Shown here: positions 5,165 through 21,394 of the stretch, piece by piece
Layout of the letters: each line of letters opens with the position of its first letter
How positions within the stretch are numbered: the stretch's first letter is position 1
Assembly (NCBI GenBank): GCA_900316615.1
Contig: ONDU01000006.1
Location: 662-33,590 of the forward strand
Source of the DNA: an uncultured Eubacteriales bacterium
Lineage (GTDB): Bacteria > Bacillota > Clostridia > Oscillospirales > Acutalibacteraceae
DNA length: 32,929 bases
Direction of reading: 5' to 3'
Notes under the pieces: model-generated
What the model was told of the DNA's origin: nothing
The model's database searches: none
What the model saw: the letters and a program-made list of their open reading frames with translations, nothing else
Translations under genes and position numbers: made by a program

Positions 5165-5169
5165 CTTGT

Positions 5170-5208
5170 AAAGCGGTGTACGAGGCTCATTCTCAGGTAC
5201 ACCGCTTT
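5170..5208 (+). terminator. strong hairpin after the small membrane-protein gene
   Basis: 12 perfect pairs: 5170-5181 (AAAGCGGTGTAC) with 5197-5208, plus an inner GAG/CTC. No T tract follows, so it may act as a 3'-end stabiliser rather than a classical terminator. It begins 6 bases after the stop codon. Confidence 0.55.
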
Positions 5209-5253: not shown

Positions 5254-5353
5254 GCGGCGATTGCCGTGATAAAAATTCTTCGATTTTTATCACGCTTCAA
5301 GAGCTGTGCTCTTGAAAAGCAGCGAATTGCTCATTCGCTGCTGCAATCGCCGC
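5254..5353 (+). repeat. family A three-armed palindromic element, copy 1
   Basis: Closing stem GCGGCGATTGC (5254-5264) with GCAATCGCCGC (5343-5353), 11 perfect pairs. Inside are exactly three hairpins: 5265-5294 (12 bp), 5296-5316 (9 bp, loop TGT) and 5320-5340 (8 bp). The flank GCGAAGCCGCA after the element is shared with copy 2. It lies between the small membrane-protein gene and the convergent minus-strand gene at 5387. A plus-strand open frame of 68 codons through it (5176-5382) is a by-product of the palindromes. Confidence 0.9.
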
Positions 5354-5377
5354 CGTTTGAGCGAAGCCGCAGGTTTT

Positions 5378-5403
5378 TATAAAACGTCAGGGATTTTCTG
5401 ACG
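5378..5403 (-). terminator. intrinsic terminator of the spoVAC operon
   Basis: On the minus strand CGTCAG (5403-5398), a seven-base loop and CTGACG (5390-5385) are followed by TTTTATAAAAA. The hairpin overlaps the stop codon of the 67-residue gene (5387-5389). Confidence 0.65.
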
Positions 5404-5590
5404 GAAAGCAACCGTCGGCAATATCGCAGGCAAGGTTTTTGATTTGACCGGGAGCTTTGGAGTTATGAGCGATTTTGTTTACAAGCTTACGCTGGTCTGG
5501 TTTCATAAGCGAATACATTTCTGAGGCGGTTGAATTTTGTGCAAGTTCATCTGAAAGCGGAACAGGGACACGACAGTTAGAGAAAATCAA
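5387..5590 (-). CDS. small protein downstream of spoVAC, unknown function
   Basis: 67 residues from a TTG at 5590, preceded by GGAGGT about 9 bases upstream (near 5600). No ATG lies near the ribosome site in this frame. The product (…MYSLMKPDQRKLVNKIAHNSKAPGQIKNLACDIADG…) is soluble, has two cysteines and a helix-prone middle, and matches no family I know; it is not SpoVAD, which follows spoVAC in Bacillus. It starts 20 bases after the spoVAC stop and ends in a terminator, so it is probably the last gene of that operon and may be made in the forespore. The evidence is position, ribosome site and terminator rather than homology. Confidence 0.55.
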   Translation of the reverse strand: MIFSNCRVPVPLSDELAQNSTASEMYSLMKPDQRKLVNKIAHNSKAPGQIKNLACDIADGCFPSENP

Positions 5591-5610
5591 AATAAAGCAC
5601 CTCCATAAGG

Positions 5611-6051
5611 TCAGGCAGCGAACAGGAAATAAAGTATTCCGAATATAACGGAAGCAGTAATGCCGTAAACGAGAACAGGACCCGCAATAACGAACATTTT
5701 TGCCCCCAAGCCTAAAACGAAGCCTTCGGATTTAAACTCTATGGCAGGAGCGACAATAGAATTTGCGAAGCCTGTAATTGGAACCAGAGTACCTGCACCG
5801 GCATGCTTTGCAATATTGTCGTAAATGCCTATTGATGTAAGCAGACCGCCTAAAAATATAAGTGATACAGAGGTGAGGGTTCTTGCGTCTGTCTGACTAA
5901 GCTTCAGCGACAGATAAAGGTTGGTAAGAGCTTGTCCTGTGCAGCATATTAAGCCGCCTGTTAGAAAAGCTTTCAGACAATTAACGGCAGTTTTGCTGTC
6001 AGGAGAGGCAAGAGAAGTCATTCTGGAATATTCCTGTTTGGTAATTTTCAA
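5611..6051 (-). CDS. spoVAC: stage V sporulation protein AC (SpoVAC)
   Basis: 146 residues, very hydrophobic with about four membrane segments. The middle carries the signature GIYDNIAKHAGAGTLVPITG, then FANSIVAPAIEFKSEGFVLG and AKMFVIAGPVLVYG, characteristic of SpoVAC. In Bacillus this inner-membrane forespore protein is part of the channel that moves calcium-dipicolinate in sporulation and out in germination. Start is TTG 6051 with AAAGGA about 10 bases upstream; no better start is present. Only one other small gene follows. spoVAD and spoVAE are not adjacent, unlike in Bacillus. I found no convincing sigma-G promoter upstream. Its presence suggests a spore-forming ancestry. Confidence 0.92.
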   Translation of the reverse strand: MKITKQEYSRMTSLASPDSKTAVNCLKAFLTGGLICCTGQALTNLYLSLKLSQTDARTLTSVSLIFLGGLLTSIGIYDNIAKHAGAGTLVPITGFANSIVAPAIEFKSEGFVLGLGAKMFVIAGPVLVYGITASVIFGILYFLFAA

Positions 6052-6171
6052 AATATCAAGTCCTTTCAGAATGATTTTATGCTATTTAATCATATTTATA
6101 CATTGATAATATGAGATATTAAGTGCAAAATGTTAATTTTTTAAAATAATCCGTTAAATTTTTATTTTATG

Positions 6172-6200
6172 TTGGAATATCAAAAAAAAATGTGTATAAT
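6172..6200 (+). promoter_or_regulatory. promoter of the cysteine desulfurase-thiI operon
   Basis: TTGGAA (6172-6177), 17 bases, TATAAT (6195-6200). The predicted start near 6207 leaves about 20-25 bases to the start codon, with AGGAG at 6222-6226. Confidence 0.7.
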
Positions 6201-6227
6201 GTAGTGTGAGTATAAAAAGACAGGAGT

Positions 6228-7367
6228 TTGATTGTTACGAACCGTGAGATATATCTTGACAACAGTGCGACAACCAAGGTAAGCAATGCGGCAGCGGATA
6301 GAGTATATGATATGCTTGTAAATACATATGGCAATCCGTCATCACTGCATACAAAGGGCTTGGAAGCACAGCACATTGTAGAAGGTGCAAGGGATATAAC
6401 TGCGAAAAGCTTAGGTGCGGACAGCAGGGAGATTTACTTTACGAGCGGCGGAACAGAGGGTAATAATCTTGCAGTAATAGGTGCTGCACTCAGGAGAAGA
6501 AAAACGGGAAACCGTATAGTAACCACAGCGGCAGAGCATTCTTCAGTAATTGAGGCGTGCCGGTATTTGGAGCAGCAGGGATTTGAGGTAATCTATCTCC
6601 CAACCGACAGATACGGAGCTGTATCTGAGGAGAGCATAGCGGAAGCCGTTGATGAAAACACTGTTCTTGTATCGGTAATGTACGTAAACAACGAGTTAGG
6701 TACGATACAGCCTGTTGAAAAGATAAGACGTATACTGAAAAGGAAAAATTCAAGAGCGGTTTTTCACACAGATGCGGTACAGGCGTTCGGAAAGATACCT
6801 GTCAGGGCGGGTAAGCTGAATGCCGATATAATAACGGTATCGGGACACAAGATACACGCACCTAAGGGTATAGGAGCATTATACATAAAAAAAGGGACTC
6901 TGATAACTCCCAGACAGTTTGGGGGAGAACAGCAGTCTAAGATAAGACCCGGTACTGAGGCATCAGCACTTATAGCAGGGTTCGGACAGGCTGTAAGCGA
7001 GATTGACCTTGACAAAATATCGGTGATAAGTGAGCTTAATGCTTATCTCAGAGAGAGGCTTTCGGAAATTGAGGGAATAGTTATAAACTCGCCCGACAAT
7101 GCACTTGAGTATGTTATAAATTTCTCGGTAAGAGGAAAAAAGAGCGAAACAATAGTTCACTTTCTTGCGGAAAGAGGTATATACGTTTCTAGCGGTTCGG
7201 CATGTGCCAAGGGAAAGCAAAGCTATGTACTCAAGGCAGCGGGAATTGAGAAAGAACTTTCAGATACTGCAATAAGGGTAAGCTTTTCCAAGTACAATAC
7301 AAAGCAGGACGTAGATGCTCTGACAGAAGCGATAATCTGTGCAAAGGGTATTATTGCAGACATATAA
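6228..7367 (+). CDS. cysteine desulfurase, NifS/IscS family (ThiI partner)
   Basis: About 379 residues, PLP-dependent aminotransferase class V. Motifs: YLDNSATT at the N-terminus, TSGGTEGNN, the His stacking on PLP in TAAEHSS, the Schiff-base lysine in SGHKIHAPKG (about K208), and the catalytic cysteine in SSGSACAKG (about C326). It takes sulfur from cysteine as a persulfide. Next to thiI it most likely acts like Bacillus NifZ, feeding sulfur for 4-thiouridine in tRNA. The start is awkward: TTG 6228 is only one base after AGGAG (6222-6226), the better-spaced codons in frame are ATT (6231) and GTT (6234), and no ATG exists before the conserved N-terminus. The true start is therefore uncertain by 1-3 codons. 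Confidence 0.93.
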   Translation: MIVTNREIYLDNSATTKVSNAAADRVYDMLVNTYGNPSSLHTKGLEAQHIVEGARDITAKSLGADSREIYFTSGGTEGNNLAVIGAALRRRKTGNRIVTTAAEHSSVIEACRYLEQQGFEVIYLPTDRYGAVSEESIAEAVDENTVLVSVMYVNNELGTIQPVEKIRRILKRKNSRAVFHTDAVQAFGKIPVRAGKLNADIITVSGHKIHAPKGIGALYIKKGTLITPRQFGGEQQSKIRPGTEASALIAGFGQAVSEIDLDKISVISELNAYLRERLSEIEGIVINSPDNALEYVINFSVRGKKSETIVHFLAERGIYVSSGSACAKGKQSYVLKAAGIEKELSDTAIRVSFSKYNTKQDVDALTEAIICAKGIIADI

Positions 7368-7405
7368 ACGTCATATTTATTATTATTAAAGAAGGATATT
7401 TGCAG

Positions 7406-8593
7406 ATGGAAGAAATCATTCTTATAAAGCTTGGAGAAATAGTACTCAAGGGACTTAACAGAAGAAGCTTTGAGGAAGTACTTATAAAAAATCTGAGGAA
7501 CAGGCTTACAAAGGCAGGCAGCTTCAGGATAAAGACAGCACAGTCAACGATAGCGGTTGAGCCGCAGGACGGAAGCTGTGATATGGAGCTTGCGTGTGAA
7601 ATTGTCGGAAAAACTTTTGGAATAGCGGCATATTCGAGAGCCTGCAAGGCTGAAAAAAATATTGAAAATATTCAGAAGACTGCTGCGGAGTATCTTGCTC
7701 AGGAGCTTGAGGACGCAGAAAGCTTCAAGGTAGAGGCAAAGCGTTCCGATAAGAAGTTTGCTCTGAAATCGCCGCAGATATGCGAGCTTACAGGAGGATA
7801 TATACTTGAAAAATTCCCTCATTTAAAGGTAGATGTAAGAAATCCTGATATAGTTGTTACGGTAGAGGTAAGGGATTTCTGTGCATACATAAGAGGCGGA
7901 GTGATAAAAGGAGCAGGGGGAATACCCGTTGGTACGGGAGGCAAGGCAGTGGTACTCATTTCCGGAGGAATAGACAGTCCCGTAGCGGCATATACAATGT
8001 CAAAGCGTGGAGTTGAACTTACAGCCGTACATTTTGCAAGTCCGCCATACACATCACAAAGAGCCGAAGAGAAGGTCTGCAAGCTTTTGAAAACCGTTTC
8101 AGAATATGCAGGAAGAATGAATATGTATACCGTGCCTTTTACGGAAATTCAGGAGCAGATAAAGGAGAAATGTCCCGAGGAGCTTTTTACCATAATAATG
8201 AGAAGATTTATGATGAGGATAAGCGAAAGGATAGCGTATGACAATGACTGCTGTGCGTTGATTACAGGAGAAAGTCTGGGACAGGTTGCAAGTCAGACAA
8301 TAAAGGCAATAGGCTGTACGGATACAGTTTGCGATATGCCTGTGTTCAGACCGCTTATAGGAATGGACAAGGACGAAATAGTAGTAATAGCAAGGAAAAT
8401 AGGTACTTTTGAAACATCTATAGAGCCTTATGAGGACTGCTGTACGGTATTTACGCCTAAGCATCCCCGAACAAAGCCGGTACTGAAATATGTTGAGCAG
8501 GCAGAGAAAGAGCTTGACTGTGAAGCACTTATGGAAAGAGCGTTGGAGAATTTAAAGCTTACCCGCATAGGCTTCGGAGAGAGCGGTTTTTAA
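7406..8593 (+). CDS. thiI: tRNA 4-thiouridine synthetase ThiI
   Basis: 395 residues. An N-terminal ferredoxin-like plus THUMP region (to about residue 165) is followed by the PP-loop ATPase with SGGIDSP at residues 186-192. The active-site cysteine region EDCCTVFTPKHP is present (C345/C346). The C-terminal rhodanese domain of E. coli ThiI is absent, as is usual in Gram-positive bacteria, where the sulfur comes directly from a dedicated cysteine desulfurase, here the gene 38 bases upstream. It adenylates U8 of tRNA and replaces the oxygen by sulfur; a thiamine role needs the rhodanese domain in enterics and is not implied. Start: ATG 7406, nine bases after GAAGGA, preferred over TTG 7400. Confidence 0.95.
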   Translation: MEEIILIKLGEIVLKGLNRRSFEEVLIKNLRNRLTKAGSFRIKTAQSTIAVEPQDGSCDMELACEIVGKTFGIAAYSRACKAEKNIENIQKTAAEYLAQELEDAESFKVEAKRSDKKFALKSPQICELTGGYILEKFPHLKVDVRNPDIVVTVEVRDFCAYIRGGVIKGAGGIPVGTGGKAVVLISGGIDSPVAAYTMSKRGVELTAVHFASPPYTSQRAEEKVCKLLKTVSEYAGRMNMYTVPFTEIQEQIKEKCPEELFTIIMRRFMMRISERIAYDNDCCALITGESLGQVASQTIKAIGCTDTVCDMPVFRPLIGMDKDEIVVIARKIGTFETSIEPYEDCCTVFTPKHPRTKPVLKYVEQAEKELDCEALMERALENLKLTRIGFGESGF

Positions 8594-8658
8594 AGTTAAG
8601 TAAACAGCCGTTTATATCGGTATGGCGTTTTCGGACAGGCTTGTACAAGGTGCGGAGC

Positions 8659-8755
8659 TGCGATTGCAGACTCTGCGGACGAATGTCCGCAGTCGTTTCA
8701 GGAGCTTTGCACCTGAAACGTGTTAAAAGCGAAGCTTTTAACGTCTGCAATCGCA
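8659..8755 (+). repeat. family A three-armed palindromic element, copy 2
   Basis: Closing stem TGCGATTGCAGA (8659-8670) with TCTGCAATCGCA (8744-8755), 12 perfect pairs. Three inner hairpins: 8673-8692 (8 bp, loop GAAT), 8694-8720 (9 bp plus a small inner helix) and 8722-8742 (9 bp, loop GAA). The flank CAGCGAAGCCGCA after it resembles copy 1, and further flanking bases (TCGGTAT near 8620, ATATGCCGA near 8785) could extend the pairing. It fills most of the 8594-8880 gap after thiI; nothing else is seen there apart from A/T-rich sequence before the next gene. Confidence 0.9.
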
Positions 8756-8880
8756 CAGCGAAGCCGCATGTTATGAAAGCTGATATGCCGAAAGAACGGA
8801 TTATATATAAATAGTTATAGTCAGAGCAAACATTAAACTGTTGCAGGGAAATAAAATTTAAGTTGGAGGAGTTATCTTTT

Positions 8881-11415
8881 ATGAATGCTGAGTTGTATAT
8901 ACTTAGGAATGCGGGAGGCAAAGCAGCTCTCAGTAATTCGGAGCTGAATGCAATAGCTAACGCACTCAGGACGAGTGATACAAAGCTTGTTTACAAGACG
9001 GAGCTTGACGCAGATGAAGACAGGATATTAGAATGCGTAATACAATCTACCGACACTAATGAGAAGATAGACTATGTAATAATACCAAATGCATTTGACG
9101 GAAACGTAAACACTGTAATTTACAGAACACTTTCGGACATAGTATCTCACAAGCACAGCAGTGTAAAGAGAAGATTTACAGAGAAGAACGGTGATGGAGA
9201 GACTGAGCTTGTAAAGGCAGAGCCTATAGGAGAAAAGCAGCTTGAAAACGGTTGTTTTTTTGTAATAAACGGAGTAAGCTTTATACTTTTACCGAAGGAT
9301 AAGGCATCTGTGCTGGAGAAAATGGTAAAGAAAGCCATACCGTTCGTAAACGAAAGGAACGAAAAGAGAGCAAAGAAAGCTGAAGAAGAAGCAGCGAAAG
9401 CCGAAAAGAAAGATGACGGACTAAAGCTCAGCGGAAACGAGCCTACAGCAGAAGTACAGTTAAAGACGTACAACAGAGCGACAATAAGCAACGGAGGCAA
9501 AGGCAGCGGAAGCAGGATAGATGCGAATAAAATAACGGTTATAGACAATACGGATACTGACGGAGTAGTATTGTCGGGAGTAAGAGAGTCTAAGGAGAAG
9601 GTAGGATTTTTCAAGGAAAGGTTTGTACCGCTCAAGACGGACAGCGGTAAAGAGAAAGCAAGGAAGATAATACTCGACTTAGCGATAATAGTATTCATAG
9701 TTACGGCTGTAATCATACTTAAGTTAATGGTTCTTGACCCGGTAGAGAACAGCAAGAAATATGATGAAATAAGGGATTTGGTAAAGACCGAGGCTGTAGA
9801 GGTAGCTACTGAGATAACGACTGATGCAGAAGGACACAAGGTGGTAATACAGGTAAAGCAGTCCAAGAAGTGGGACAAGCTGAAGCAGATAAACAGCGAG
9901 GTAGTAGGCTGGGTTACGATAGACGGAACCAATATAGACTATCCCGTACTTCAGCATCCCGGTGACAACGATGACGGACAGTTTTATCTGCACAGGGATA
10001 TATACAGGAACTACAGCGGATACGGAAGCATATTCCTTGATTACAGAAGCAACAAGGCGGTAAAGTCGAAGAACCTCATACTTCACGGACACCATATGAA
10101 TGACGGAAGTATGTTCCAGAACCTTATGGGATACGGAAAGTATACGGCAGATATGAGCTTCTACAATGACCACCCGACAATAGAATTTGATACACCTGAC
10201 GGAGATGCGGTATACAAGATAATATCTGTATTTAAAACAAGTACGCTGGACGCACACGGAGATTTCTTCAACTATCTTGTAGGAAGCTTTGAGAGTGACG
10301 CTGAATTTATGAATTATGTATATCTTGTAAGGGCACGTTCACTTATAAATACAGGAGTAACCTGCAACGAAAAGGATCAGCTTCTAACACTTTCGACCTG
10401 CTCATACGAGTACAGTGAATTCAGGACTGTAGTAGTGGCAAGAAAGACAAGAGTTGGAGAGGACAGCAGCGTAGATACATCAAGGGCGTCGGCAAATCCC
10501 AATCCCCTGTGGCCTGATGTTTACTATGGATTTGACGATTCAAAGAAGCCTAAGGTAACGACATTTAAAACTGAGAGTAAGAACGGAAGAATTTCGTGGT
10601 ATGACGGAAAGGGTAATCTGAAAGGTAAAGAAAGAATGTTTACTCTTCATGATGAAGAGGACGAGCTTGCTTCGGAGAATGCATCGGCAGCTGCATCGGC
10701 AACCACACCTGCGGCAACTCAGCAGGAGGTTACCCAGCCTCAGACGCAGCCGCCCACACAGGCACCGCCCACAGAAGAACCTGAGGTTAAGGCAGAGAGC
10801 ATACTTTTCAACTACAGTACTCTTGTAGTTCCCATAGGAGGAAGCGATAAGCTGGAAATATACTGGACCCCCTCAAATGTTACCGATAAATCTATAAAAT
10901 GGGAATCAAGCAACGCAAATATAGCAACGATTTCTCCGGGAGGGCTTGTAAAGGCAAAATCACCGGGAGAGTGTACAATTACAGCAGAAACGGAAAACGG
11001 CAAGAAAACGAGCTGTAAAATAGTTGTAACGGGCAGACAGGCAACAAAGCTTACAATATCACCTTCAAACTATTCTACTGACAAAAAGGGTGAGCAGTTT
11101 AAATTAACTGCAACGGTAGAGCCGAGCAATCATACAAGCACTGTAAAGTGGACATCATCCAATACGAAGGTAGCAACCGTAACAAGCAACGGTACGGTAA
11201 GAACAAAGGGATACGGAGAATGCAGGATAACAGCTTCAATAGATGGTCTTGAGGTAAGCTGCACGGTAACGGTAAATAAGCCGAGTACGCCTACACAGGC
11301 ACCTACAAAGGCACCTGCACCTCCTACACAGGCACCTACCCAGCCTCCTACAGCAGCACCTACCCAGGCTCCCGAACCGACTGCTCAGATTGAGGAAAAA
11401 ACTGACGGAGAATAA
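8881..11415 (+). CDS. class B sortase fused to two Big2 (Ig-like) domains
   Basis: 844 residues from ATG 8881 (GGAGGA at 8864-8869; an in-frame TTG at 8863 overlaps that site). Order: an intracellular region of about 255 residues of unknown fold ending in a charged Lys/Ala/Glu helix; one membrane helix (about 263-284); a class B sortase domain (about 340-530) with catalytic His404 in LHGHHMNDGSMF, Cys507 in TLSTCSYE and Arg515; a Thr/Pro/Gln linker (about 604-640); two bacterial Ig-like group 2 domains (about 639-718 and 721-800) with WESSNANIATIS and WTSSNTKVATVT; and a Thr/Pro/Ala-rich tail. Sortases cut a C-terminal sorting signal and join the protein to the cell wall or to pilins. The extra N- and C-terminal parts are unusual. 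No sortase substrate with an obvious sorting motif lies in the window. Confidence 0.92.
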   Translation: MNAELYILRNAGGKAALSNSELNAIANALRTSDTKLVYKTELDADEDRILECVIQSTDTNEKIDYVIIPNAFDGNVNTVIYRTLSDIVSHKHSSVKRRFTEKNGDGETELVKAEPIGEKQLENGCFFVINGVSFILLPKDKASVLEKMVKKAIPFVNERNEKRAKKAEEEAAKAEKKDDGLKLSGNEPTAEVQLKTYNRATISNGGKGSGSRIDANKITVIDNTDTDGVVLSGVRESKEKVGFFKERFVPLKTDSGKEKARKIILDLAIIVFIVTAVIILKLMVLDPVENSKKYDEIRDLVKTEAVEVATEITTDAEGHKVVIQVKQSKKWDKLKQINSEVVGWVTIDGTNIDYPVLQHPGDNDDGQFYLHRDIYRNYSGYGSIFLDYRSNKAVKSKNLILHGHHMNDGSMFQNLMGYGKYTADMSFYNDHPTIEFDTPDGDAVYKIISVFKTSTLDAHGDFFNYLVGSFESDAEFMNYVYLVRARSLINTGVTCNEKDQLLTLSTCSYEYSEFRTVVVARKTRVGEDSSVDTSRASANPNPLWPDVYYGFDDSKKPKVTTFKTESKNGRISWYDGKGNLKGKERMFTLHDEEDELASENASAAASATTPAATQQEVTQPQTQPPTQAPPTEEPEVKAESILFNYSTLVVPIGGSDKLEIYWTPSNVTDKSIKWESSNANIATISPGGLVKAKSPGECTITAETENGKKTSCKIVVTGRQATKLTISPSNYSTDKKGEQFKLTATVEPSNHTSTVKWTSSNTKVATVTSNGTVRTKGYGECRITASIDGLEVSCTVTVNKPSTPTQAPTKAPAPPTQAPTQPPTAAPTQAPEPTAQIEEKTDGE

Positions 11416-11444
11416 TTTCGGGTACGGATTTTTGCCGGGGCTGT

Positions 11445-11537
11445 GCGGCTGCAAAACTGCGGAAGCGAAGCTTCCGCAGTCCTCAGAGCAAAGCTCTGAG
11501 ACTATCAAAAGCTTTGCTTTTGATAGTTTGCAGCCGC
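11445..11537 (+). repeat. family A three-armed palindromic element, copy 3
   Basis: Closing stem GCGGCTGCAA (11445-11454) with TTGCAGCCGC (11528-11537). Three inner hairpins: 11456-11480 (11 bp, loop GAA), 11482-11500 (8 bp, loop AAA) and 11501-11527 (12 bp, loop TTT), all perfect. The closing stem differs from the other copies at the bases equivalent to GATT, and both strands have changed together. It starts 30 bases after the sortase stop. Confidence 0.9.
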
Positions 11538-11594
11538 CGTCAGAGCAAAGCCGAAGGCAGGAGAAAAGCAACAAAAATCTGAAAGGCTGATTTT

Positions 11595-11993: not shown

Positions 11994-11996
11994 GCT

Positions 11997-12665: not shown

Positions 12666-12727
12666 GAGTATATGATAAAAAGAAGCAAAAAATTATCGTT
12701 GCAGGAATGAAAGGAGCAGTTGGTTTA

Positions 12728-14218
12728 ATGAGGTTTAATTTAAGAATTATATTGACAGCAATTATGCTGATTTTTACTGCAATGCTTCAGGGCTGTTCCT
12801 TTGCGGGGATTTCAGACGAAAATCTGCTGCAGCCTCCGAGAGCAACGGGAGTAAAGGCTGACATACAGAACCTGCTTGAAACGACAACCAAAGGTGATTA
12901 CAAGCTGAAGTATCCGCAAAACGGAGAAAACCGTTCAGCGATAATAATGTGCAGTGAAGAAGGCAGTGAACAAAATGAAGCCATAGCCTTTTATACAACA
13001 GGAAAGGACACGTCTGTAAATCTTGCATTTATGAATGAATCCGGAGGCAAATGGAGCGTAGTATCCGTAGTGACCAATCAGAATTCGGAGGTAGACAGGG
13101 TATATCTTGACGATGTAGACAACGATAAAAAGAATGAGATTATAGTAGGCTGGGTTTCATACGTATCATCGAACAATCAGATAATAATGTACGACTATAC
13201 CGGAGAAACGATAACGCCGACAATAATAAGCGGAGACAATACGGCATATTCCGATATGGTATTGACAGATATAACGGACGATGGAGTAACAGATTTACTG
13301 GTACTCAACAGTTATATGGCGGCAGACGGAAACCAGTCCGAGAGGGGACAGTCTACGATACTGTACAGTGCATGCGTAAACGGAACCTTTTCAAAGGTAT
13401 CGGAAATATCGATGTCATCTTCAGTTGTATCCGTAGCGAAGCTTACCGTAGGAAATATCGAAGGCAATGTAAAGGCATTGTTTGTTGACGGAGTTACGCA
13501 AAACAGTGCCGATGAGCTTGTGACGCAGGTAATATACTATTCAAAATCTGACCAGATTTTGAAAAATCCGCTCAACGTAAACGATGCTTCAGGAGAAAGC
13601 CAAAATATAACTCTCAGAAAGACCTCAACCGTATGCAAGGACGTAGACAATGACGGAATAATTGAAGTTCCCTCAACATATCTGCACGAGGTGAAAAACG
13701 GAGAAATACCGTCAGCTCCAATTATCAGATGGTACAAGGTAATGGCAGATGAGGACGTGAGAGAGGTTATGCAAACCTTTTCCAATTATTTTGACGCATT
13801 CTACTTTGTGCTTCCCGAAAGCTGGGAGGACAGGGTGGTTGTATCGGGAAACAATACTTCAAGAACAACAATGTTTTATGAGATAATCGGAACAGATATT
13901 ACAACGTCCGATTATGAAAAATCTACAGAGACTGCAACCGAGCAGAGGGTAGAAAGTGCAACCATACCTGAGATAGATGATTCCGAAAAGCGTGAGCAGA
14001 GAGAAACCGTACTTGTAAATTCCGAGCCGTTGCTTACAATAAGGGTATTCACGCAGAAGGTGTGGAAGAATGAGGGGGCGGCAAGGCTTTCTGAGGGATA
14101 CACCGTAATAAGGAATGAAAATGGTCTGGTATATACTTTCAAAAAAGGAAGCAGTGACGATGATAAGATGAATATAACGTCAAGGCAGATAAACCGCAGC
14201 TTTCACATAATAAAGTAA
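12728..14218 (+). CDS. lipoprotein with Asp-rich FG-GAP/propeller-like repeats
   Basis: 496 residues from ATG 12728. The frame is open back to 12662, but only the 12728 start gives a clean lipoprotein signal peptide (MRFNLRIILTAIMLIFTAMLQGC, lipobox LQGC) and has AAGGAG (12711-12716) 11 bases upstream. The mature protein contains Asp-rich repeats of the VCBS/FG-GAP type, DDVDNDKKNEI (near residue 128), TDITDDGVTDLLV (near 180) and KDVDNDGIIEVPS (near 304), which in such proteins bind calcium in beta-propeller blades. It would be anchored outside the membrane. It lies between trmB and a two-component system in the same direction, so it could be the surface partner of the sensor kinase; that link is inferred only from position. 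Confidence 0.85.
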   Translation: MRFNLRIILTAIMLIFTAMLQGCSFAGISDENLLQPPRATGVKADIQNLLETTTKGDYKLKYPQNGENRSAIIMCSEEGSEQNEAIAFYTTGKDTSVNLAFMNESGGKWSVVSVVTNQNSEVDRVYLDDVDNDKKNEIIVGWVSYVSSNNQIIMYDYTGETITPTIISGDNTAYSDMVLTDITDDGVTDLLVLNSYMAADGNQSERGQSTILYSACVNGTFSKVSEISMSSSVVSVAKLTVGNIEGNVKALFVDGVTQNSADELVTQVIYYSKSDQILKNPLNVNDASGESQNITLRKTSTVCKDVDNDGIIEVPSTYLHEVKNGEIPSAPIIRWYKVMADEDVREVMQTFSNYFDAFYFVLPESWEDRVVVSGNNTSRTTMFYEIIGTDITTSDYEKSTETATEQRVESATIPEIDDSEKREQRETVLVNSEPLLTIRVFTQKVWKNEGAARLSEGYTVIRNENGLVYTFKKGSSDDDKMNITSRQINRSFHIIK

Positions 14219-14239
14219 CAGAGCTTTGACGGAGAAAGC

Positions 14240-14334
14240 ATAAAAGTTTGGGCTTAACTTTTTCAAAGGTTCAAGGTTTTCAAAGGCGGAGTCTTTTTGA
14301 GAAATTTTTAAGGACAGAGCTTATTAAACTTTAA
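14240..14334 (+). repeat. family B repeat, strongly degenerate copy 2
   Basis: Aligns by eye to the full copies (AAAAGTTTGGGCTTAACTTTTTCAAAGG…, …TTTTTAAGGA…CTTATTAAACTT), in the same order of modules, but the pairing of the hairpins is largely lost. It occupies the gap before the response-regulator gene. Confidence 0.6.
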
Positions 14335-14367
14335 TGCATCATATGATTTTTAAGGGAGGCATAAGGC

Positions 14368-15075
14368 TTGAGAAAGATACTTGTTTGTGAGGACGAGTCG
14401 GCAATACGTGACTTTGTGGTAATCAACCTTATAAGAGGCGGATATGAGGTCATTGAAGCAGAAAACGGAGAAACGGCACTCAAAAAATACGATGAAAACA
14501 ACGGAGATATAGATGTGGCTCTTTTAGACGTTATGATGCCGGGAATGGACGGCTTTCAGGTTTGTAAGGAGCTTAGAAGAAGAAACGGTGATATAGGAAT
14601 AATAATGCTGACTGCCAAAACGCAGGAAATGGATAAGGTAACAGGACTTATGCTCGGAGCAGACGACTATGTTACAAAGCCCTTTTCGCCCTCAGAGCTT
14701 GTGGCGAGAGTAGATGCTTTGCACAGAAGAGTAGTTCTTGCAAAGAAAACCGGTACGGGGAATTTCAGTGCAGAAATAAAGTCGGGAGTATTCGTTCTCA
14801 ATTTAAAGAGCAGAGCTTTGCTTAAAAACGGAAAAATAATAGAGCTTACTCAGGTTGAATTTCAGATAATGGAGTACTTTTTCTCAAATCCTGGTGTTGC
14901 ACTCAGCAGAACAAAAATTCTAAAGCACGTATGGGGCGATAATTACGTGGGTGAAGAAAAAATAGTAGATGTAAACATAAGGCGTTTAAGAATGAAGATA
15001 GAGGATCAGCCTTCAAATCCCAAATATATAGTAACTGTATGGGGACTTGGCTATAAGTGGGACGGCAAAGTATAA
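14368..15075 (+). CDS. response regulator, OmpR/PhoB family
   Basis: 235 residues. The receiver domain has the acidic pocket CEDE (D9), the phospho-acceptor Asp54 in LLDVMMPGMDG, the switch threonine (MLTAKT) and Lys104 in VTKPFSPSEL. The C-terminal winged helix (about 135-235) shows the OmpR-type ELTQVEFQIMEYF and the recognition part VDVNIRRLRMKIE. A phosphorylation-controlled transcription factor, partner of the kinase encoded 47 bases downstream. Start is TTG 14368 with AAGGGAGG (14352-14359) at good spacing; no ATG fits. Homologues with this architecture include PhoP, ResD and WalR, but the regulon cannot be told from sequence. Confidence 0.95.
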   Translation: MRKILVCEDESAIRDFVVINLIRGGYEVIEAENGETALKKYDENNGDIDVALLDVMMPGMDGFQVCKELRRRNGDIGIIMLTAKTQEMDKVTGLMLGADDYVTKPFSPSELVARVDALHRRVVLAKKTGTGNFSAEIKSGVFVLNLKSRALLKNGKIIELTQVEFQIMEYFFSNPGVALSRTKILKHVWGDNYVGEEKIVDVNIRRLRMKIEDQPSNPKYIVTVWGLGYKWDGKV

Positions 15076-15122
15076 ATCAAAATGTAATGTAAAAAAACTG
15101 AAAATACGGGCGGAGGGATAGA

Positions 15123-16529
15123 ATGAGAAGAGGAATAACGGGCAGATGGCTGGTGAACACGTTCGGAGTAATTTTGGCTATAGTGGTTTTTCTTGTTGTT
15201 GTTCTGTCTCTTTTTATGAAAGGCTATTACTATAACGGAATACATCAGACGTTAAACGGAAGAGTGGACGAGCTGAGCAACGTAATAGGAAACTACAGCA
15301 AGGAATATTTCGATGTCGGAGCAAGAGGCTATGTTGAGAACTTTTCCGACAAGGAAAGCATGGAAATGATGATAATAAACTGGGAGGGAAAAATCGTAAT
15401 AACCTCCACAGGCTTTCCGCCCGACAATACCGTTGATATGCCCGACTACAAGATTGCTATAAACAAAAAAAGTGAGGGCTACGGCTTCTGGCAGGGAATA
15501 CAGAATGACGAGCATATAATGGCAGTCACAAAAATAATATACGATACAGCAGGCGATTCAGTAGGTGCAATAAGATACTGCGTATCTCTCGAGCCTGCCG
15601 ACAGACAGATATTCGTAATGATAATGTTTATGATACTTGTGGGAATGTCAATCCTGTTTTTCGTACTTCTTTCAGGAGCATATTTCGTGCGTTCAATAGT
15701 AAGACCTATTCAGGAAATAAACGATGTTTCAAAAAGAATAGCACAGGGCGACTTTGAGGCAAGGCTTGAACGCAGAAACAATGACGAAATAGGAGAGCTT
15801 TGCGATTCCATAAACTATATGGCACAGGAGCTGGGAGTTTCCGAAAAGCTGAAAAACGACTTTATATCCTCAGTATCTCACGAGCTGAGAACCCCTCTTA
15901 CTGCGATAAAGGGCTGGGCGGAAACTATGAAAATGGGAGATACGCCTGATTTCAGAACCTTTGAAAAGGGAATGAGCGTAATAATAAGGGAATCCGAAAG
16001 GCTTACGGGCATTGTTGAGGAACTTTTGGATTTTTCGAGAATACAGAGCGGCAGAATGGTAATAAATATGGAGCGTATAGACCTTCTGGCGGAGCTTGAC
16101 GATGCAATATATATGCTCAGGGAGCGTGCGTTGAACGAGGGAAAACATCTTATCTATGACGAGCCCGAATTTGTTCCGCCCGTGCAGGGAGATAAAAACA
16201 GAATAAGACAGGTTTTCATAAACGTTATAGACAATGCACTCAAATATACTCCCGAATCAGGTGTTATAGGCATAGAAGTAAAGAGTGATGATGACAACAT
16301 ACAGATAATAATAAGCGACAACGGCTGCGGAATACCTGCCGAGCATCTGCCCAAGGTAAGGGATAAATTCTACAAGGCAAATCAGACGCAGAGAGGTTCG
16401 GGGATAGGTCTTGCAGTTGTTGACGAAATTATGAATTTACATAACGGAAGCCTTGATATTGAAAGTACGGAGAATGTAGGAACAACTGTTATTCTGACAT
16501 TCCCCATAGAAAAGATAGAAGACAACTAA
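15123..16529 (+). CDS. sensor histidine kinase
   Basis: 468 residues. Two membrane helices (about 9-35 and 163-190) bracket an extracellular domain of about 125 residues; then a HAMP linker (IVRPIQEINDVSKRIAQGDFEARL), a HisKA domain with phospho-acceptor His253 in SVSHELRTPLTAIKGWAE, and a HATPase domain with the N box (INVIDNALKYTP), G1 (DNGCGIP) and G2 (GSGIGLAVV). All catalytic parts are intact. Start ATG 15123 with GGAGGG nearby. It is cognate to the response regulator upstream. Its ligand is unknown; the lipoprotein encoded before the pair might contribute to sensing. Confidence 0.95.
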   Translation: MRRGITGRWLVNTFGVILAIVVFLVVVLSLFMKGYYYNGIHQTLNGRVDELSNVIGNYSKEYFDVGARGYVENFSDKESMEMMIINWEGKIVITSTGFPPDNTVDMPDYKIAINKKSEGYGFWQGIQNDEHIMAVTKIIYDTAGDSVGAIRYCVSLEPADRQIFVMIMFMILVGMSILFFVLLSGAYFVRSIVRPIQEINDVSKRIAQGDFEARLERRNNDEIGELCDSINYMAQELGVSEKLKNDFISSVSHELRTPLTAIKGWAETMKMGDTPDFRTFEKGMSVIIRESERLTGIVEELLDFSRIQSGRMVINMERIDLLAELDDAIYMLRERALNEGKHLIYDEPEFVPPVQGDKNRIRQVFINVIDNALKYTPESGVIGIEVKSDDDNIQIIISDNGCGIPAEHLPKVRDKFYKANQTQRGSGIGLAVVDEIMNLHNGSLDIESTENVGTTVILTFPIEKIEDN

Positions 16530-16548
16530 AAAGGAGGCATTTTGAATT

Positions 16549-17553
16549 ATGGGTCAGACAAGAAAGGAACGCATAAAAAAAATAACCTCTATAGGCGGTT
16601 CTGCCTTGATAGAGGGCATTATGATGAGAGGGCCGCAGAAAGTTATGGTGGCTGTAAGAACAGGTGAAAATGATATATATACTCAGGAACTGCCGTTTGA
16701 GAGCCTTCCTTCAAAGTACAGGATATTCAAAATTCCGCTTATAAGAGGCTTTGCAGGTATGGTGGATTCAATGCGTCTTAGCTACAAGGCACTTTCCATT
16801 TCTGCGGACAAGGCTATCGAGAGTATACCGGAAGACGAGCAGGAAGAGCCGTCAAAGCTTGAAAAGTGGCTGGACGAAAAGTTCGGAGAAAAGCTTGTAG
16901 GTGCAATTATGACGCTTTCTATGATTATCGGTGTTGCACTTTCGATACTTATTTTCTTTATGGTTCCCACATGGCTTTATAACCTTATTTCAGGAGCATT
17001 AGGCTCAAATGACGGAATGTCGTGGGTAGGTGACAGGTTCTTCCGTTCGCTTTTCGAGGGTATAATAAGAATAATACTTTTTCTTTTGTATATAGTTCTC
17101 TGTTCACGTATGCCCGATATGAAAAGAGTTTTTCAGTATCACGGAGCGGAGCATAAAACGATTTTCTGCTACGAAAGCGACGAGGAGCTTACCGTAAGCA
17201 ATGTTAAAAAGCATACACGCTTTCACCCCCGCTGCGGTACGAGCTTTCTTGTAATAATGCTGATTGTCGGTATAGTAATCGGATTGTTCATTCCTATTAC
17301 AAACCCTGTTCTGAGAACTGCTGTAAAGCTTCTTCTGCTTCCCGTAACCTGCGGTATAGGCTACGAGTTTATAAGAATTTGCGGAAGATACGACAATAAA
17401 ATTACTCGTATTATTGCTGCCCCGGGTCTTTGGGCACAGAGAATTACTACTAAAGAACCTGATGACCGTATGATAGAGGTTGCAATAAAGGCTATGAAAG
17501 CCGTTATTCCCGAAAACGGAGAGGATATTCTCCGTACAAAGAGTGATGTTTAA
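16549..17553 (+). CDS. DUF1385 (YqhQ-like) multi-pass membrane protein
   Basis: 334 residues. The N-terminal motif SIGGSALIEGIMMRGPQKVMVAVR and the central FQYHGAEHKTIFCYE…TRFHPRCGTSFL are hallmarks of the DUF1385 family (YqhQ in Bacillus). About four membrane helices: 119-145, about 165-187, 233-252 and 260-275. The conserved His/Glu/Cys cluster suggests metal binding, but the biochemical function is not established. AAGGAGG about 11 bases before ATG 16549. It is followed 3 bases later by prmC, a common linkage in Clostridia. Confidence 0.92.
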   Translation: MGQTRKERIKKITSIGGSALIEGIMMRGPQKVMVAVRTGENDIYTQELPFESLPSKYRIFKIPLIRGFAGMVDSMRLSYKALSISADKAIESIPEDEQEEPSKLEKWLDEKFGEKLVGAIMTLSMIIGVALSILIFFMVPTWLYNLISGALGSNDGMSWVGDRFFRSLFEGIIRIILFLLYIVLCSRMPDMKRVFQYHGAEHKTIFCYESDEELTVSNVKKHTRFHPRCGTSFLVIMLIVGIVIGLFIPITNPVLRTAVKLLLLPVTCGIGYEFIRICGRYDNKITRIIAAPGLWAQRITTKEPDDRMIEVAIKAMKAVIPENGEDILRTKSDV

Positions 17554-17556
17554 TTT

Positions 17557-18414
17557 ATGACCTACAATACACTTTACCGCAATACAATTATGTTATTAAA
17601 AAAGGCAGGAAATGAAGCTCCTGCCTTTGATACTATGTGCCTTTTTGAAGATATTCTCGGTATGAACCGCCACAGTCTTATAATAAACGGAAATGTGGAG
17701 GTAAGCGAAAACGACCGTAAAAAAATAGAAGCTTCTGCTCAGAAACGTGCGGAAGGCTATCCGCTACAGTACATTCTCGGAAAATGGAGCTTTATGGACT
17801 TTGACTTTTTTGTGGGCGAGGGGGTTCTTATTCCGCGTGAAGATACATCTGTGGTCGTAAAGCTCTGCATTGACGAAATAAAGACATTGAAAAAAGAAGC
17901 TCCCAAAATACTCGACCTCTGTGCAGGAAGCGGAGCTATAAGCGTAGTACTTTCAAAGCTCATACCTCAAAGTACCGTAACAGCCGTTGAGCTTTACGAA
18001 AAAGCCGCATATTATCTCAGAAAAAATATATCGCTCAACCAATGTAAAAATATTTCTTCTGTTATTGCCGATGTTTTCAGGGATATTTCCTTGTTTGAAA
18101 ATCAGCAGTTTGACGTCATTATATCTAACCCGCCTTATATAATTTCGTCTGAAATATCTCAGCTTCAAAAGGAAGTTCGGTTTGAACCCGAAACAGCTCT
18201 CAGCGGCGGTATTGACGGCTTTGATTTTTACCGTGAAATTATCGGCAGCTGGTCACGGCTTCTGAAAAAGAACGGTCTTATGGTCTTTGAGCTTGGCGAA
18301 AATCAGTTTGATACCGTGAAAAATATGCTTCTCGAAAACGGCTTTTCAGATATAAATTATGCCTTGGATATTCAAAAAATCAAAAGGGGTATAAGCGGAA
18401 TAAAATATTCCTGA
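17557..18414 (+). CDS. prmC: PrmC, release-factor glutamine methyltransferase
   Basis: 285 residues. An N-terminal helical domain binds release factors (QYILGKWSFMDFDFFVGEGVLIPREDT is the typical linker motif), followed by a Rossmann methyltransferase with ILDLCAGSGAISVVL (SAM site) and the catalytic NPPY at residues 191-194. It methylates the glutamine of the GGQ motif in RF1/RF2, needed for efficient termination. Start ATG 17557 is 3 bases after the DUF1385 stop with no strong ribosome site of its own, implying translational coupling. prfA, often its neighbour, does not follow; a family A element does. Confidence 0.95.
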   Translation: MTYNTLYRNTIMLLKKAGNEAPAFDTMCLFEDILGMNRHSLIINGNVEVSENDRKKIEASAQKRAEGYPLQYILGKWSFMDFDFFVGEGVLIPREDTSVVVKLCIDEIKTLKKEAPKILDLCAGSGAISVVLSKLIPQSTVTAVELYEKAAYYLRKNISLNQCKNISSVIADVFRDISLFENQQFDVIISNPPYIISSEISQLQKEVRFEPETALSGGIDGFDFYREIIGSWSRLLKKNGLMVFELGENQFDTVKNMLLENGFSDINYALDIQKIKRGISGIKYS

Positions 18415-18433
18415 GCTTAACTCATCATCTTTG

Positions 18434-18528
18434 GGCGATTGCGGCGAAAAAAGACTTGTCTTTTTTCGGGCGTTAAGAGCTATGCTCTTAACGGGTATGC
18501 GGAGAAATCCGCATACCTCGCAATCGCC
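18434..18528 (+). repeat. family A three-armed palindromic element, copy 4
   Basis: Closing stem GGCGATTGCG (18434-18443) with CGCAATCGCC (18519-18528). Inner hairpins: 18445-18468 (10-11 bp, loop CTTG or TT), 18471-18493 (10 bp, loop TAT) and 18495-18516 (9 bp, loop GAAA, a GNRA-type tetraloop). All perfect. It begins 20 bases after the prmC stop. Confidence 0.9.
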
Positions 18529-18578
18529 GCATGCTCTCAGCGTTGACGGAGATATTTTAAAAATCTTTTGGTATTATG

Positions 18579-18607
18579 TTGAAATAAGTCGTATATTATT
18601 ATATAAT
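18579..18607 (+). promoter_or_regulatory. sigma-A type promoter of the SGNH lipoprotein gene
   Basis: TTGAAA (18579-18584), 17 bases, TATAAT (18602-18607). The leader from about 18614 to the ATG at 18676 contains CGGAGG just before the start. Confidence 0.85.
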
Positions 18608-18675
18608 ATAAAAGTTATAACTTTTTAACGGAGTTATACAAAAAATTCAGATTATCGGAAAAACGGAGGAAAATT

Positions 18676-19485
18676 ATGAAAAAGGCTCTTTTTATGGCAA
18701 TGCTGATATGTATAAGTGCGGTATCTTTTGCAGGTTGTTCTGCGGATAAAAAAGCTTCATCATCACAGGCACAGACTCAGGCACAGGCCATAGTGACAGG
18801 TACGGAAGCGGCAACTCAGCAGGAAGCAACTCAGAATGTATCAGAACAAGCTCAGGTGCAGCCGGGAGAAGCTGTAGATGCTTCATGGTTCAACGATGCG
18901 GTATTTCTTGGTGACAGCGTAACCCTGAAGCTCAGCTACTACTGTGAAGAACACCCCGAAGCACTCGGAACAGCACAGTTTTTCTGTGCGGGAAGTCTTG
19001 GATATACAAACGCACTCTGGGACTTGAATGCCGAAGATGCCGTACACCCCTACTATAAAGGAGCTGTACAGCTTTCGGAGAACTGTGCGGTTGCAACAGG
19101 AGCTAAAAAGGTATTTGTAATGCTGGGAATGAATGACATAGGCTTGTACGGAGTTGAGGATACCCTGCAAAGCCTTAATACCTTGCTTAGTAAGATACAT
19201 ACAAATTCACCTGAAGCTGCGATTTACGTGCAGTCGGTTACACCTATACTCAACGGCTTTGAAAACGGAAGCTTCAGTAATGAAACAGTAAGAGCATTCA
19301 ATGCAAGAGTATCACAGTACTGCGAGGTGAACGGGCTTAAATATATAGACATATACAGCCTTATGTGTGATGAAAACGGCTACCTCAAACCTGAAAACTG
19401 CGGCGACCCCGAGGCCTTGGGAATACACTTTACTGATTCGGCGTGTGAAATATGGATAGATGCTCTGAAAAGAAATGCAGCTTAA
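18676..19485 (+). CDS. SGNH/GDSL-family hydrolase lipoprotein
   Basis: 269 residues. Lipoprotein signal MKKALFMAMLICISAVSFAGC (lipobox FAGC, Cys21), a Ser/Gln/Thr/Ala linker to about residue 68, then an SGNH hydrolase domain: catalytic Ser81 in FLGDSVT, the GxND block in MLGMNDIGLYG, and the C-terminal His/Asp block in LGIHFTDSACEIW. Such enzymes are extracellular esterases, often deacylating acetylated polysaccharides or peptidoglycan; the substrate is not predictable. Consensus promoter upstream and GGAGG before ATG 18676. It is followed 41 bases later by another lipoprotein gene, probably co-transcribed. Confidence 0.9.
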   Translation: MKKALFMAMLICISAVSFAGCSADKKASSSQAQTQAQAIVTGTEAATQQEATQNVSEQAQVQPGEAVDASWFNDAVFLGDSVTLKLSYYCEEHPEALGTAQFFCAGSLGYTNALWDLNAEDAVHPYYKGAVQLSENCAVATGAKKVFVMLGMNDIGLYGVEDTLQSLNTLLSKIHTNSPEAAIYVQSVTPILNGFENGSFSNETVRAFNARVSQYCEVNGLKYIDIYSLMCDENGYLKPENCGDPEALGIHFTDSACEIWIDALKRNAA

Positions 19486-19526
19486 AAATATATCTGTGTA
19501 CACTTAAAATAAAGGAGAAATAGAAA

Positions 19527-20030
19527 ATGAAAAAATTAACGGCTTTAATGCTTGTTCTCAGCCTTGTGACTGTTATATTGTGTTCCTGTTCATCATCAGA
19601 GCCTTCATCACAGACGGCTCCCTCTGTACAGGCTTCAAAAGCTCTTTCCGAGGTTTTTGCGGATATAAAAGCTCAGGTACAGCTTTCAGAGATGAACGAG
19701 TTCACAAATGCAGCAAGCCTCGACAGGTATTACGGTATAGCGGAAGCTGATATTCAGGAGTTTGCAGGCGGCATAAACAACTCAGGAGTAGAGCAGGAGG
19801 AAATAGTTCTCGTAAAGGCTGCCGACAGCGGCAAGGCGGAAGCTATAAAGGCTGCACTCGAGAACAGACTTAATGCTAAATTAAATGAGAATGTAAACTA
19901 CAATCCCGAACAGGCTGAGATGATAAAGAAATGTAAGGTAGAACAAAACGAGCTTTATGTTTCGATGATAGTGTCGGAGAACGCCGAAAAAATTACTGAG
20001 ATATACAAGAGCGAAACAGGAATTGCGTAA
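19527..20030 (+). CDS. DUF4358-like lipoprotein
   Basis: 167 residues. Signal peptide MKKLTALMLVLSLVTVILCSC with a Cys doublet at 19/21 as lipobox (SC or CSC), then a Ser-rich stretch and a domain of about 125 residues. The segment YYGIAEADIQEFAGGINNSGVEQEEIVLVKAADSGKAEAIKAALENRL resembles the DUF4358 domain of Clostridia lipoproteins: a tyrosine-containing segment, a short strand, then KxxD and a helix that counts residues by AIKxALE. The function is unknown. AAAGGAG at about 19511-19517 precedes ATG 19527. It lies just downstream of the SGNH lipoprotein gene and before a family A element. Confidence 0.85.
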   Translation: MKKLTALMLVLSLVTVILCSCSSSEPSSQTAPSVQASKALSEVFADIKAQVQLSEMNEFTNAASLDRYYGIAEADIQEFAGGINNSGVEQEEIVLVKAADSGKAEAIKAALENRLNAKLNENVNYNPEQAEMIKKCKVEQNELYVSMIVSENAEKITEIYKSETGIA

Positions 20031-20057
20031 ATAAAACTGCATTGTGCGGAATGTGCG

Positions 20058-20153
20058 GCGATTGCAGACCGTTTCGGACTAAGTCCGAAACGAAATTTCA
20101 AGGTGTACCTTGAAATTTGACAAAAGCGTGCCGCTTTTGTTGTCTGCAATCGC
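20058..20153 (+). repeat. family A three-armed palindromic element, copy 5
   Basis: Closing stem GCGATTGCAGAC (20058-20069) with GTCTGCAATCGC (20142-20153), 12 perfect pairs. Inner hairpins: 20070-20092 (10 bp, loop TAA), 20093-20118 (11 bp, loop TGTA) and 20120-20140 (9 bp, loop TGC). It begins 28 bases after the DUF4358-like gene. The closing stem matches copy 2 closely while all three inner hairpins differ. Confidence 0.9.
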
Positions 20154-21329: not shown

Positions 21330-21394
21330 GTTTTGGTCAAACAAATTTTAACCGTCCAAGGAAGCTCTTGGGCGGTATTTTTGCAGAATTATAA

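Follow-up and report, generated by a model that had tools for sequence, protein, structure and literature searches.

What are the five three-armed structures that lie in this stretch of DNA, and why is a shape kept in them while the letters change? The initial annotation of the window (the whole stretch of 32,929 nucleotides that was analysed) had described each of them as three hairpins enclosed by a closing stem, and the predicted folds bear this out in 5/5 cases, with fold-energy z-scores of -9.84 to -12.32 and 0/200 shuffles equally stable for each element. The window gave 0 Rfam matches at the gathering score, in keeping with the annotation's remark that no named RNA was recognised, and an ordinary Rfam RNA is rejected on this ground. 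The elements, together with vestiges of an outer closing stem on their right flanks, are as follows.

5254..5353, no strand assigned: element 1; closing stem 5254-5264/5343-5353; hairpins 5265-5294, 5296-5316 and 5318-5342
5357..5373, plus strand: outer-closing-stem vestige TTGAGCGAAGCCGCAGG, flanking element 1 on the right, from sequence and flank consensus
8659..8755, no strand assigned: element 2; closing stem 8659-8671/8743-8755; hairpins 8673-8692, 8694-8720 and 8722-8742
8756..8768, plus strand: CAGCGAAGCCGCA, flanking element 2 on the right; another vestige of this outer stem, from sequence and flank consensus
11445..11537, no strand assigned: element 3; variant closing stem GCGGCTGC; hairpins 11456-11480, 11482-11500 and 11501-11527
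11541..11558, plus strand: CAGAGCAAAGCCGAAGGC, flanking element 3 on the right; probably a further vestige of this outer stem, by resemblance to the eye
18434..18528, no strand assigned: element 4; hairpins 18445-18468, 18471-18493 and 18494-18517
20058..20153, no strand assigned: element 5; hairpins 20070-20092, 20093-20118 and 20120-20140

Element 1 lies between convergent genes by our own gene calls and has an orthologue in the sister species, G001 (L064). Element 2 begins 65 nt past the thiI stop, ahead of a sortase-domain gene; the same gene pair stands roughly 11-30 bp apart, without an element, in the congener G005, and the G001 copy differs strongly in two of the three hairpins. Elements 3, 4 and 5 follow a sortase-domain gene by 29 nt, a prmC-like gene by 19 nt and a DUF4358 gene by 27 nt, respectively; the G001 copy of element 4 is identical, and element 5 has a G001 orthologue (L048).

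The initial annotation knew of only five copies, and searching the whole genome revealed many. Searched with a looser closing-stem pattern, the window's genome (G000) yields 178 occurrences and G001 170, with 0 for the reversed control, and the true G000 total is about 180 or more, as variants with other closing stems, such as that at 11445, are missed by this pattern. The architecture itself was surveyed with a sequence-blind detector requiring a closing stem of at least 7 pairs that encloses chained hairpins, the initial version of which left out element 2 and the elements of the G096 type and was relaxed, then replaced. Applied to 320,179 bases of G000, this first detector returned 52 elements with three arms and 2 AT-rich matches with two (0 matches in a Markov copy of the sample), and in larger samples the two-armed matches, AT-rich for the most part, numbered 5 in G000 and 7 in G001. 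A stricter detector (closing stem of at least 8 pairs) found 70 elements in G000 (580,744 bases) and 59 in G001 (591,199 bases), densities that are not genome means because the stretches were picked partly for pattern-search matches; an AT-rich G001 match (L104:1588) was excluded from 60, and the overlap of L021 and L022 was counted once. With this stricter detector no two-, four- or five-armed element appeared in the two samples, and 2.0 Mb of second-order Markov controls held 0 elements.

Exactly three hairpins were present in 118/118 elements located by the closing stem alone, the inner part not being selected on, and among their 3520 inner pairs we counted 4 single mismatches (A.A 2, A.C 1, C.T 1), 3 bulges and no G.T. 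The inner unit spans some 93-97 bp, with a closing stem of about 12 bp and three hairpins of 8-12 bp. Across 117 elements (132 minus 15 that lack an exact core or lie close to the end of a stretch), pairing beyond the core falls from 78% at the first base outside to 38% at the second and lies near background farther out; a closing stem of at least 17 bp in 18/129 elements shows that this unit edge is not universal. Outer-stem vestiges occur on 77/234 flanks versus 9 for the reversed consensus, an enrichment that is partly circular because the consensus was derived from the same flanks.

The inner hairpins had been called unrelated, which is too strong because their arms recur as loose types: A, whose arm resembles CAAAAGC, B, which stands in the middle and resembles TTCAAAGG, and C, which is GC-rich, ordered A-B-C or as the reverse complement thereof. 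Likewise, the closing stems had been described as similar between copies, and the pattern does recur 178 times, but the stem also varies with compensation (GCGATTGC, GCGATTTC, GCGGCTGC). The central proposal of the annotation, that the shape and not the sequence is kept, is upheld by a covariation score of 0.814 versus 0.170 (sd 0.005) in shuffles and 0.07-0.12 in slid controls, by changes on both sides in 41/42 pairs, and by two-sided changes in 1756 cells versus one-sided changes in 21.

Copies are also retained in place. Where both flanks could be matched between G000 and G001, the element is present in both species at 17/18 loci, and at the remaining one it was lost in G000 with one arm left. 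Between the two species, which differ at 23.1% of third codon positions, 464/483 inner pairs are unchanged; the orthologues at window position 8659, whose hairpins cannot be aligned, were excluded from this comparison. Loops do change, with 73/209 unpaired sites differing. The 118- and 117-element sets require the exact core, so decay of the closing stem was judged instead from a survey of its 10-base arm, which is blind to copies with both arms changed and found 190/194 arm copies in intact elements, 2 in one border-cut element and 2 as one-armed remnants. Double changes between orthologues comprise 7 of the transversion type and 5 of the transition type, indicating that they do not arise mainly through G.U intermediates, and 5/51 loops are flipped (1.6 expected, P 0.018). 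Template switching is described as homogenising arms and inverting spacers (PMC8604942, PMC8794818), and conserved non-coding short inverted repeats of proteobacteria are discussed in that context (PMC8604942).

The explanation that we tentatively prefer, at somewhat below even confidence, is that these are old non-autonomous mobile palindromes in which each copy is under selection for its fold, most simply at the DNA level, with template switching supplying the double changes. A unit of about 145 bp, in which a long closing stem enclosed three hairpins, would have spread in an ancestor of these species and landed past stop codons, several copies coming to lie between co-transcribed genes. The outer stem would later have decayed in most copies, leaving the inner 93-97 bp almost perfectly paired at each locus, where closing stem and hairpins may join in a tight four-way junction. 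Selection would then act on the fold itself, as extruded or single-stranded three-armed DNA, perhaps through a host protein that recognises the junction and binds or cuts it; template switching between arms at replication could produce both the simultaneous double changes and the loop flips, letting the sequence drift while the fold remains perfect. In favour of insertion, the gene pairs that an element splits here are tight or overlapping in at least one relative at 6/8 informative loci. On the other side, our searches found no mobiliser, no target-site duplication recognisable by eye around 18 long-stem elements and, in the sister species, no clean empty site.

An RNA role is possible, though on the unlikely side: the elements would act in 3' untranslated or intercistronic regions, where a very stable four-way junction would block 3' exonucleases or set the ratios of operon genes. 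A similar 3'-exonuclease block or operon-ratio role has been proposed for REP elements. The RNA folds are very stable, and the genomic position suits such a role. By our own simple gene caller, 115 of 132 elements are intergenic, 10 lie at stretch edges and 7 overlap called genes; of the 115 classified copies 91 stand between co-directional genes, at a median of 36 nt past the stop codon, and divergent-gene intervals are short of elements (6/87 versus 105/466, P 0.0004). Moreover, the elements of G096, a genome of another genus, keep the same placement with other sequences (6 ++, 4 --, 5 convergent, 0 divergent, 2 called inside genes), and three copies sit within a phage structural gene cluster of G001. 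This position after stops and the divergent-gene shortage fit transcribed RNA as well as DNA.

The pairs themselves speak against RNA. With G.U permitted, 21/4852 pairs are G.U, and the sense strand of co-directional elements carries 3 G.T, 5 A.C and 7 other mismatches, so G.U is not tolerated in excess of A.C; a structured RNA would be expected to accept G.U but not A.C on its functional strand, and the elements do not behave in this way. Many double changes are of the transversion type, and GNRA loops number 5 sense versus 3 antisense (n=273). The remaining lean toward the sense strand is weak, both in arm order relative to transcription (47:32, P 0.11; 37:22, P 0.07 for clearly different arms) and in loop letters (A:T 407:369, P 0.18; G:C 119:94, P 0.10; AAA:TTT 37:22, P 0.07). 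These strand biases are not significant, yet strand symmetry is not clean. Of the three readings first offered (a structured RNA, a cruciform recognised by a nuclease or transposase, a spreading palindromic element), the near-absence of G.U thus favours DNA over RNA, and the lack of a significant strand preference places selection most simply on DNA; the location behind genes keeps an RNA role open.

It is improbable that the elements are a purely selfish or neutral repeat without function, whose palindromes stay perfect through template-switch mutation alone. Both marks of template switching, arm homogenisation and spacer inversion, are seen, but change in the arms falls far short of that at third codon positions, whereas under neutral homogenisation the arms would be expected to drift at the mutation rate; in addition, pairing ends at the unit edge in most copies despite the contiguous outer stem, and copies keep their position, nearly all of them intact.

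A transcription terminator of unusual form is very improbable: T-run hairpins are indeed scarce beside co-directional elements (4 observed versus 15.2 expected, length-matched, n=88) and Rho was not found in 6/6 congeners (a control matched in 12/14 genomes), but the mean T count in the 12 nt after an element is 2.7 versus 3.2 before, at least 6 T within the next 12 nt follow in only 7/91, convergent ends are not depleted of T-run hairpins (7/36 versus 27/124), and at 6/8 informative loci the genes split by an element are 2-26 bp apart or overlapping in at least one relative, which places several elements inside operons and likewise explains the missing terminators. An intrinsic terminator is rejected for lack of a T-run directly after the hairpin, and Rho-trimmed 3' ends because the rho model has no match in 6/6 congeners. 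At three of the six tight gene pairs, the relatives share 27-63% protein identity and may be paralogues.

In favour of the mobile palindromes that we prefer, copies are many in two species (178 and 170), yet the stricter sequence pattern is present in 2/398 family genomes. G096 carries equally dense three-armed elements of quite different sequence. The lead to G096 came from a covariance model, R1, run over 150 family genomes, the absences from which are weak because only 27 candidates were scored per genome; it had 0 matches in 259,674 bases of G002-G005. G034 is a low-copy carrier. A rather unlikely extension is that the differently lettered three-armed elements of several genera within a single family (G000/G001/G003, G096, G034) and of one further MAG, Lapin-004 bin52, form a shape-coded class, in which a DNA four-way junction would be read by form alone by host machinery and selected at nearly two hundred loci per genome. 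As to position shared between genera, an element stands behind a sortase-domain homologue in G096, at 1/3 homologues found, which is not significant.

Phage-borne spread was considered for the IMG/VR contig L279, which holds three elements by detector and two by pattern, and rejected: the contig is 99.7-99.8% identical to G001 stretches and encodes terminase, portal-like, capsid and baseplate genes, marking it as a prophage-like region of the G001 species.

Repeats usually share a sequence. What these share is a fold with a fixed number of arms, near-perfect pairing, loop turnover and few decaying copies, and such conservation of shape over sequence is unusual; sequence-based annotation of repeats and RNAs easily misses elements of this kind. 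The roughly 180 natural replicates could be used to test whether DNA cruciforms are visible to selection, and to measure what template switching and selection each contribute to the upkeep of perfect palindromes. In the open PMC full texts that were searched, we found no comparable elements.

REP elements sit near gene 3' ends. The REP, BIME and REPIN families resemble the present elements as high-copy, extragenic palindromes thought to be mobile non-autonomous DNA, and 178 copies are counted here; a supplementary figure legend mentions a 'clover' configuration of REPINs (PMC3116915). REP palindromes measure 20-40 bp and bear the end tag GTAG or CGTC (PMC3733652), whereas the elements here measure about 95 bp (93-97 bp or so), with three arms, a closing stem and arm sequences that differ widely between copies. 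The suggested REP-type transposase did not materialise: PF01797 (Y1 tyrosine transposase) gave 0 matches in G000, G001, G003, G005 and G096 and is present in G002, G004 and G034. A RAYT-driven REP is rejected, as the carriers G000, G001, G003 and G096 have no PF01797; the low-copy carrier G034 does have it. Integron attC sites are recognised through their single-strand fold and vary in sequence, but the elements here are single sites after ordinary genes. Like MITEs, they are short and non-autonomous, lie between genes and bear traces of a longer outer inverted repeat; they differ in an interior of three constrained hairpins. No target-site duplication was recognised by eye around the 18 long-stem elements and no parent transposon was found, the probing for the latter covering two arbitrarily chosen transposase/nuclease families (PF13612, PF13456), too few to weigh against one. 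The double-hairpin elements of Allomyces mitochondria are reportedly small fold-defined repeats, thought to be selfish. Palindromic repeats of Volvox organelles are likewise small, fold-defined and thought selfish (PMC2670323); the present elements differ from both in being bacterial-chromosomal, with three fixed arms and a closing stem, placed after stop codons and little decayed. Among 250 palindromic candidate RNAs that a human microbiome survey places on both strands, 20 fall outside its predicted terminators (PMC8040213); its examples come from Bacteroidetes and its main text holds no Ruminococc- term. On the best reading, the three-armed elements lack a REP transposase but are REP- or MITE-like in habit.

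The three-armed elements are real, strongly structured and no artefact. The five in the window (starting at 5254, 8659, 11445, 18434 and 20058) fold as the initial annotation described, a closing stem around three hairpins, with z-scores of -9.84 to -12.32, and the window is without an Rfam match. Nor are these five alone: the closing-stem pattern GCGATTGC-N66..96-GCAATCGC matches 165 times in the window's genome (G000; 98 contigs, 1.83 Mb), and the reversed control not once. A relaxed pattern yields 178 matches in G000, 170 in the sister species G001 and 2 in the congener G003, with none in the congeners G002, G004 and G005; a tighter one is present in 2 of 398 family genomes, G000 and G001.

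Stretches of G000 (580,744 bases) and G001 (591,199 bases) supplied 72 and 60 elements, and all 132 contain exactly three hairpins when folded with G.U pairs forbidden. When the closing stem is the sole search criterion, 118 elements are found, whose inner part is thus free of selection by the search; all of them have three hairpins, with 4 single mismatches and 3 bulges in 3520 inner pairs. A detector admitting two to five arms returned 70 three-armed elements in G000 and 59 in G001, and none with two, four or five arms in these stretches. Junctions are tight (no unpaired base in 22/70 and 36/59, respectively), and the hairpins fall into loose types A, B and C, ordered A-B-C or the reverse complement. 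Aligned by structure, 134 strand matches (both strands of one element may appear; a single G003 copy and a single weak match are among them; 128 rows are distinct) have 97.6% of cells paired, 1756 cells with two-sided against 21 with one-sided changes, and a covariation score of 0.814 versus 0.170 when shuffled, bearing out the proposal that shape rather than sequence is kept.

Pairing outside the core falls from 78% at the first base to 38% at the second and then to near background; inside it, positions 9 and 10 pair in 96% and 91%, the core itself being paired through the choice of search pattern. This edge is not universal, as closing stems reach at least 17 bp in 5/70 G000 and 13/59 G001 elements. 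An outer-stem consensus, derived from the same flanks on which it was counted, matches 77/234 flanks (both sides in 10/117 elements, at least one in 67/117); a longer outer stem seems once to have been present.

At 18 loci both flanks could be matched between G000 and G001, other elements having one or no flank within the stretches examined. The element is kept in both species at 17, and at one the hairpins and right arm were lost in G000. Codons differ at 23.1% of third, 5.0% of first and 3.3% of second positions. Across 16 orthologue pairs, unpaired element sites differ at 73/209, and 464/483 inner pairs are unchanged; the others comprise 12 double changes (7 transversion-type), one to G.T, one to A.C and 5 unclear. 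A helix-based count over 17 pairs gives two-sided change in 20/486 base pairs. Among 51 loops, 15 are the same, 31 other or unalignable, and 5 exactly inverted (1.6 by shuffling, P 0.018). Template switching, predicted in an excerpt of PMC8604942 to homogenise arms and invert spacers, can be a source of the double changes; on its own it explains neither the slow arm change nor the pairing edge. The element at window 8659 occupies the same position in both species, with strong differences in two of its three hairpins; this suggests replacement from another copy. One 10-base arm occurs 194 times in the stretches, 190 within intact elements; the other four are two halves of one intact element split by a stretch border and two one-armed remnants. 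Covariance search scores show a gap between the lowest clear match (32 bits) and the sole weaker one (20 bits). Copies are therefore almost always whole or truncated by deletion rather than in slow decay.

Gene neighbourhoods, from a simple gene caller, place 91 elements between co-directional genes (median 36 nt behind the upstream stop), 18 between convergent and 6 between divergent ones, with 10 at stretch edges and 7 overlapping called genes; divergent regions are avoided (6/87 vs 105/466, P 0.0004). At 6 of the 8 informative loci, three of these depending on relatives at 27-63% identity, one or more relatives have the flanking genes overlapping or at most 26 bp apart, so that several elements lie inside operons. 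In L279, an IMG/VR contig, and in L065/L066 of G001, three elements lie between genes of a phage-like structural cluster. Other repeats in these stretches are as follows.

Window 1391-1497, 21246-21337, 27207-27285 and 31274-31395: second family, chained separate perfect hairpins without closing stem (CAAGCCTTTTCAAAGGCTTG, CAGGGGCAGAGCCCCTG, TTTAAGGGTGAAACCCTTAAA)
Window 32771-32818: lone perfect 22-bp hairpin, GC-rich, 4-base loop
L025:1674-1782 and L055:4479-4585: three-armed element conserved in both G000 and G001, with unrelated closing stem GGTGCGACCCGCC and AT-rich arms

The last is perhaps a different family of the same shape. The chain at 27207 is decayed; similar chains occupy element positions in G002, G003 and G004, filling the same gap at two loci (behind thiI in G002; L126:8556 in G003 and G004). 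A short way upstream of the first element, at window 5169-5208, lies a long stem (AAAGCGGTGTAC...GTACACCGCTTT) that looks like an ordinary terminator. The Rho model TIGR00767 has no match in any of the six genomes of the genus and matches 12/14 control genomes.

The shape recurs elsewhere. In G096, which belongs to a different genus of the family, 116,777 bases searched with a sequence-blind detector contain 17 three-armed elements; their closing stems and arms differ from those of G000/G001, and they again lie behind genes (15 classified, none divergent, 2 called inside genes). A three-armed element at L156:17918-18004 of G096 follows the stop of a sortase-domain homologue of window 8863-11415. 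Of three two-armed matches in G096, two are AT-rich and L154:11330 is possibly a genuine two-armed variant. The detector found 2 elements in 129 kb of G003 and none in G002 (106 kb), G004 (41 kb) or G005 (104 kb). A wider scan of 100 loci, covering 20 family genera and 80 named relatives (1,568,880 bases in all), gave 3 elements in 2 loci: two in G034 of a further genus, the third in the uncultured Clostridia bin Lapin-004. By sequence, G034 holds three similar copies, and a search of 5 congeners found none like them. Because a G+C-rich, GGCGA-like start is, by eye, common to the closing stems of the carrier groups, these may possibly form one ancient superfamily. Judged by ThiI, the nearest named relatives are MAGs labelled uncultured Ruminococcus (79%), followed by uncultured Clostridia and Anaeromassilibacillus (at most 71%), in a list from which the window's closest records may be missing.

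The likeliest reading, held tentatively, is a mobile palindrome whose fold is selected at the DNA level. With G.U permitted, 21 of 4852 pairs in the 118 elements are G.U; in rRNA, according to an excerpt of PMC8794818, compensations mostly involve such pairs (G-U or U-G in 78.5% of two-step cases), and the scarcity in the elements, by contrast, favours a DNA object. Somewhat less probable is an RNA role between cistrons. Small sense-strand leans are compatible with it and leave it room: arm order against transcription is 47:32 (P 0.11), or 37:22 where arms clearly differ in GC (P 0.07), loops lean non-significantly to A and G (A:T 407:369, G:C 119:94, AAA:TTT 37:22), and GNRA loops stand at 5:3, sense versus antisense, also non-significant. 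Sense-strand mismatches in co-directional elements are G.T in 3, A.C in 5 and other in 7 cases. The elements fail one test for structured RNAs, G.U acceptance on the functional strand, and likewise fail the test for transcription terminators.

In habit the elements come nearest to REP/REPIN repeats, MITEs and the fold-defined palindromes of organelles. They nevertheless fail the search for a REP-type Y1 tyrosine transposase (PF01797), which has no match in the carriers G000, G001, G003 and G096 and is present in the low-copy carrier G034, and the transposase lead of the initial annotation falls with it.
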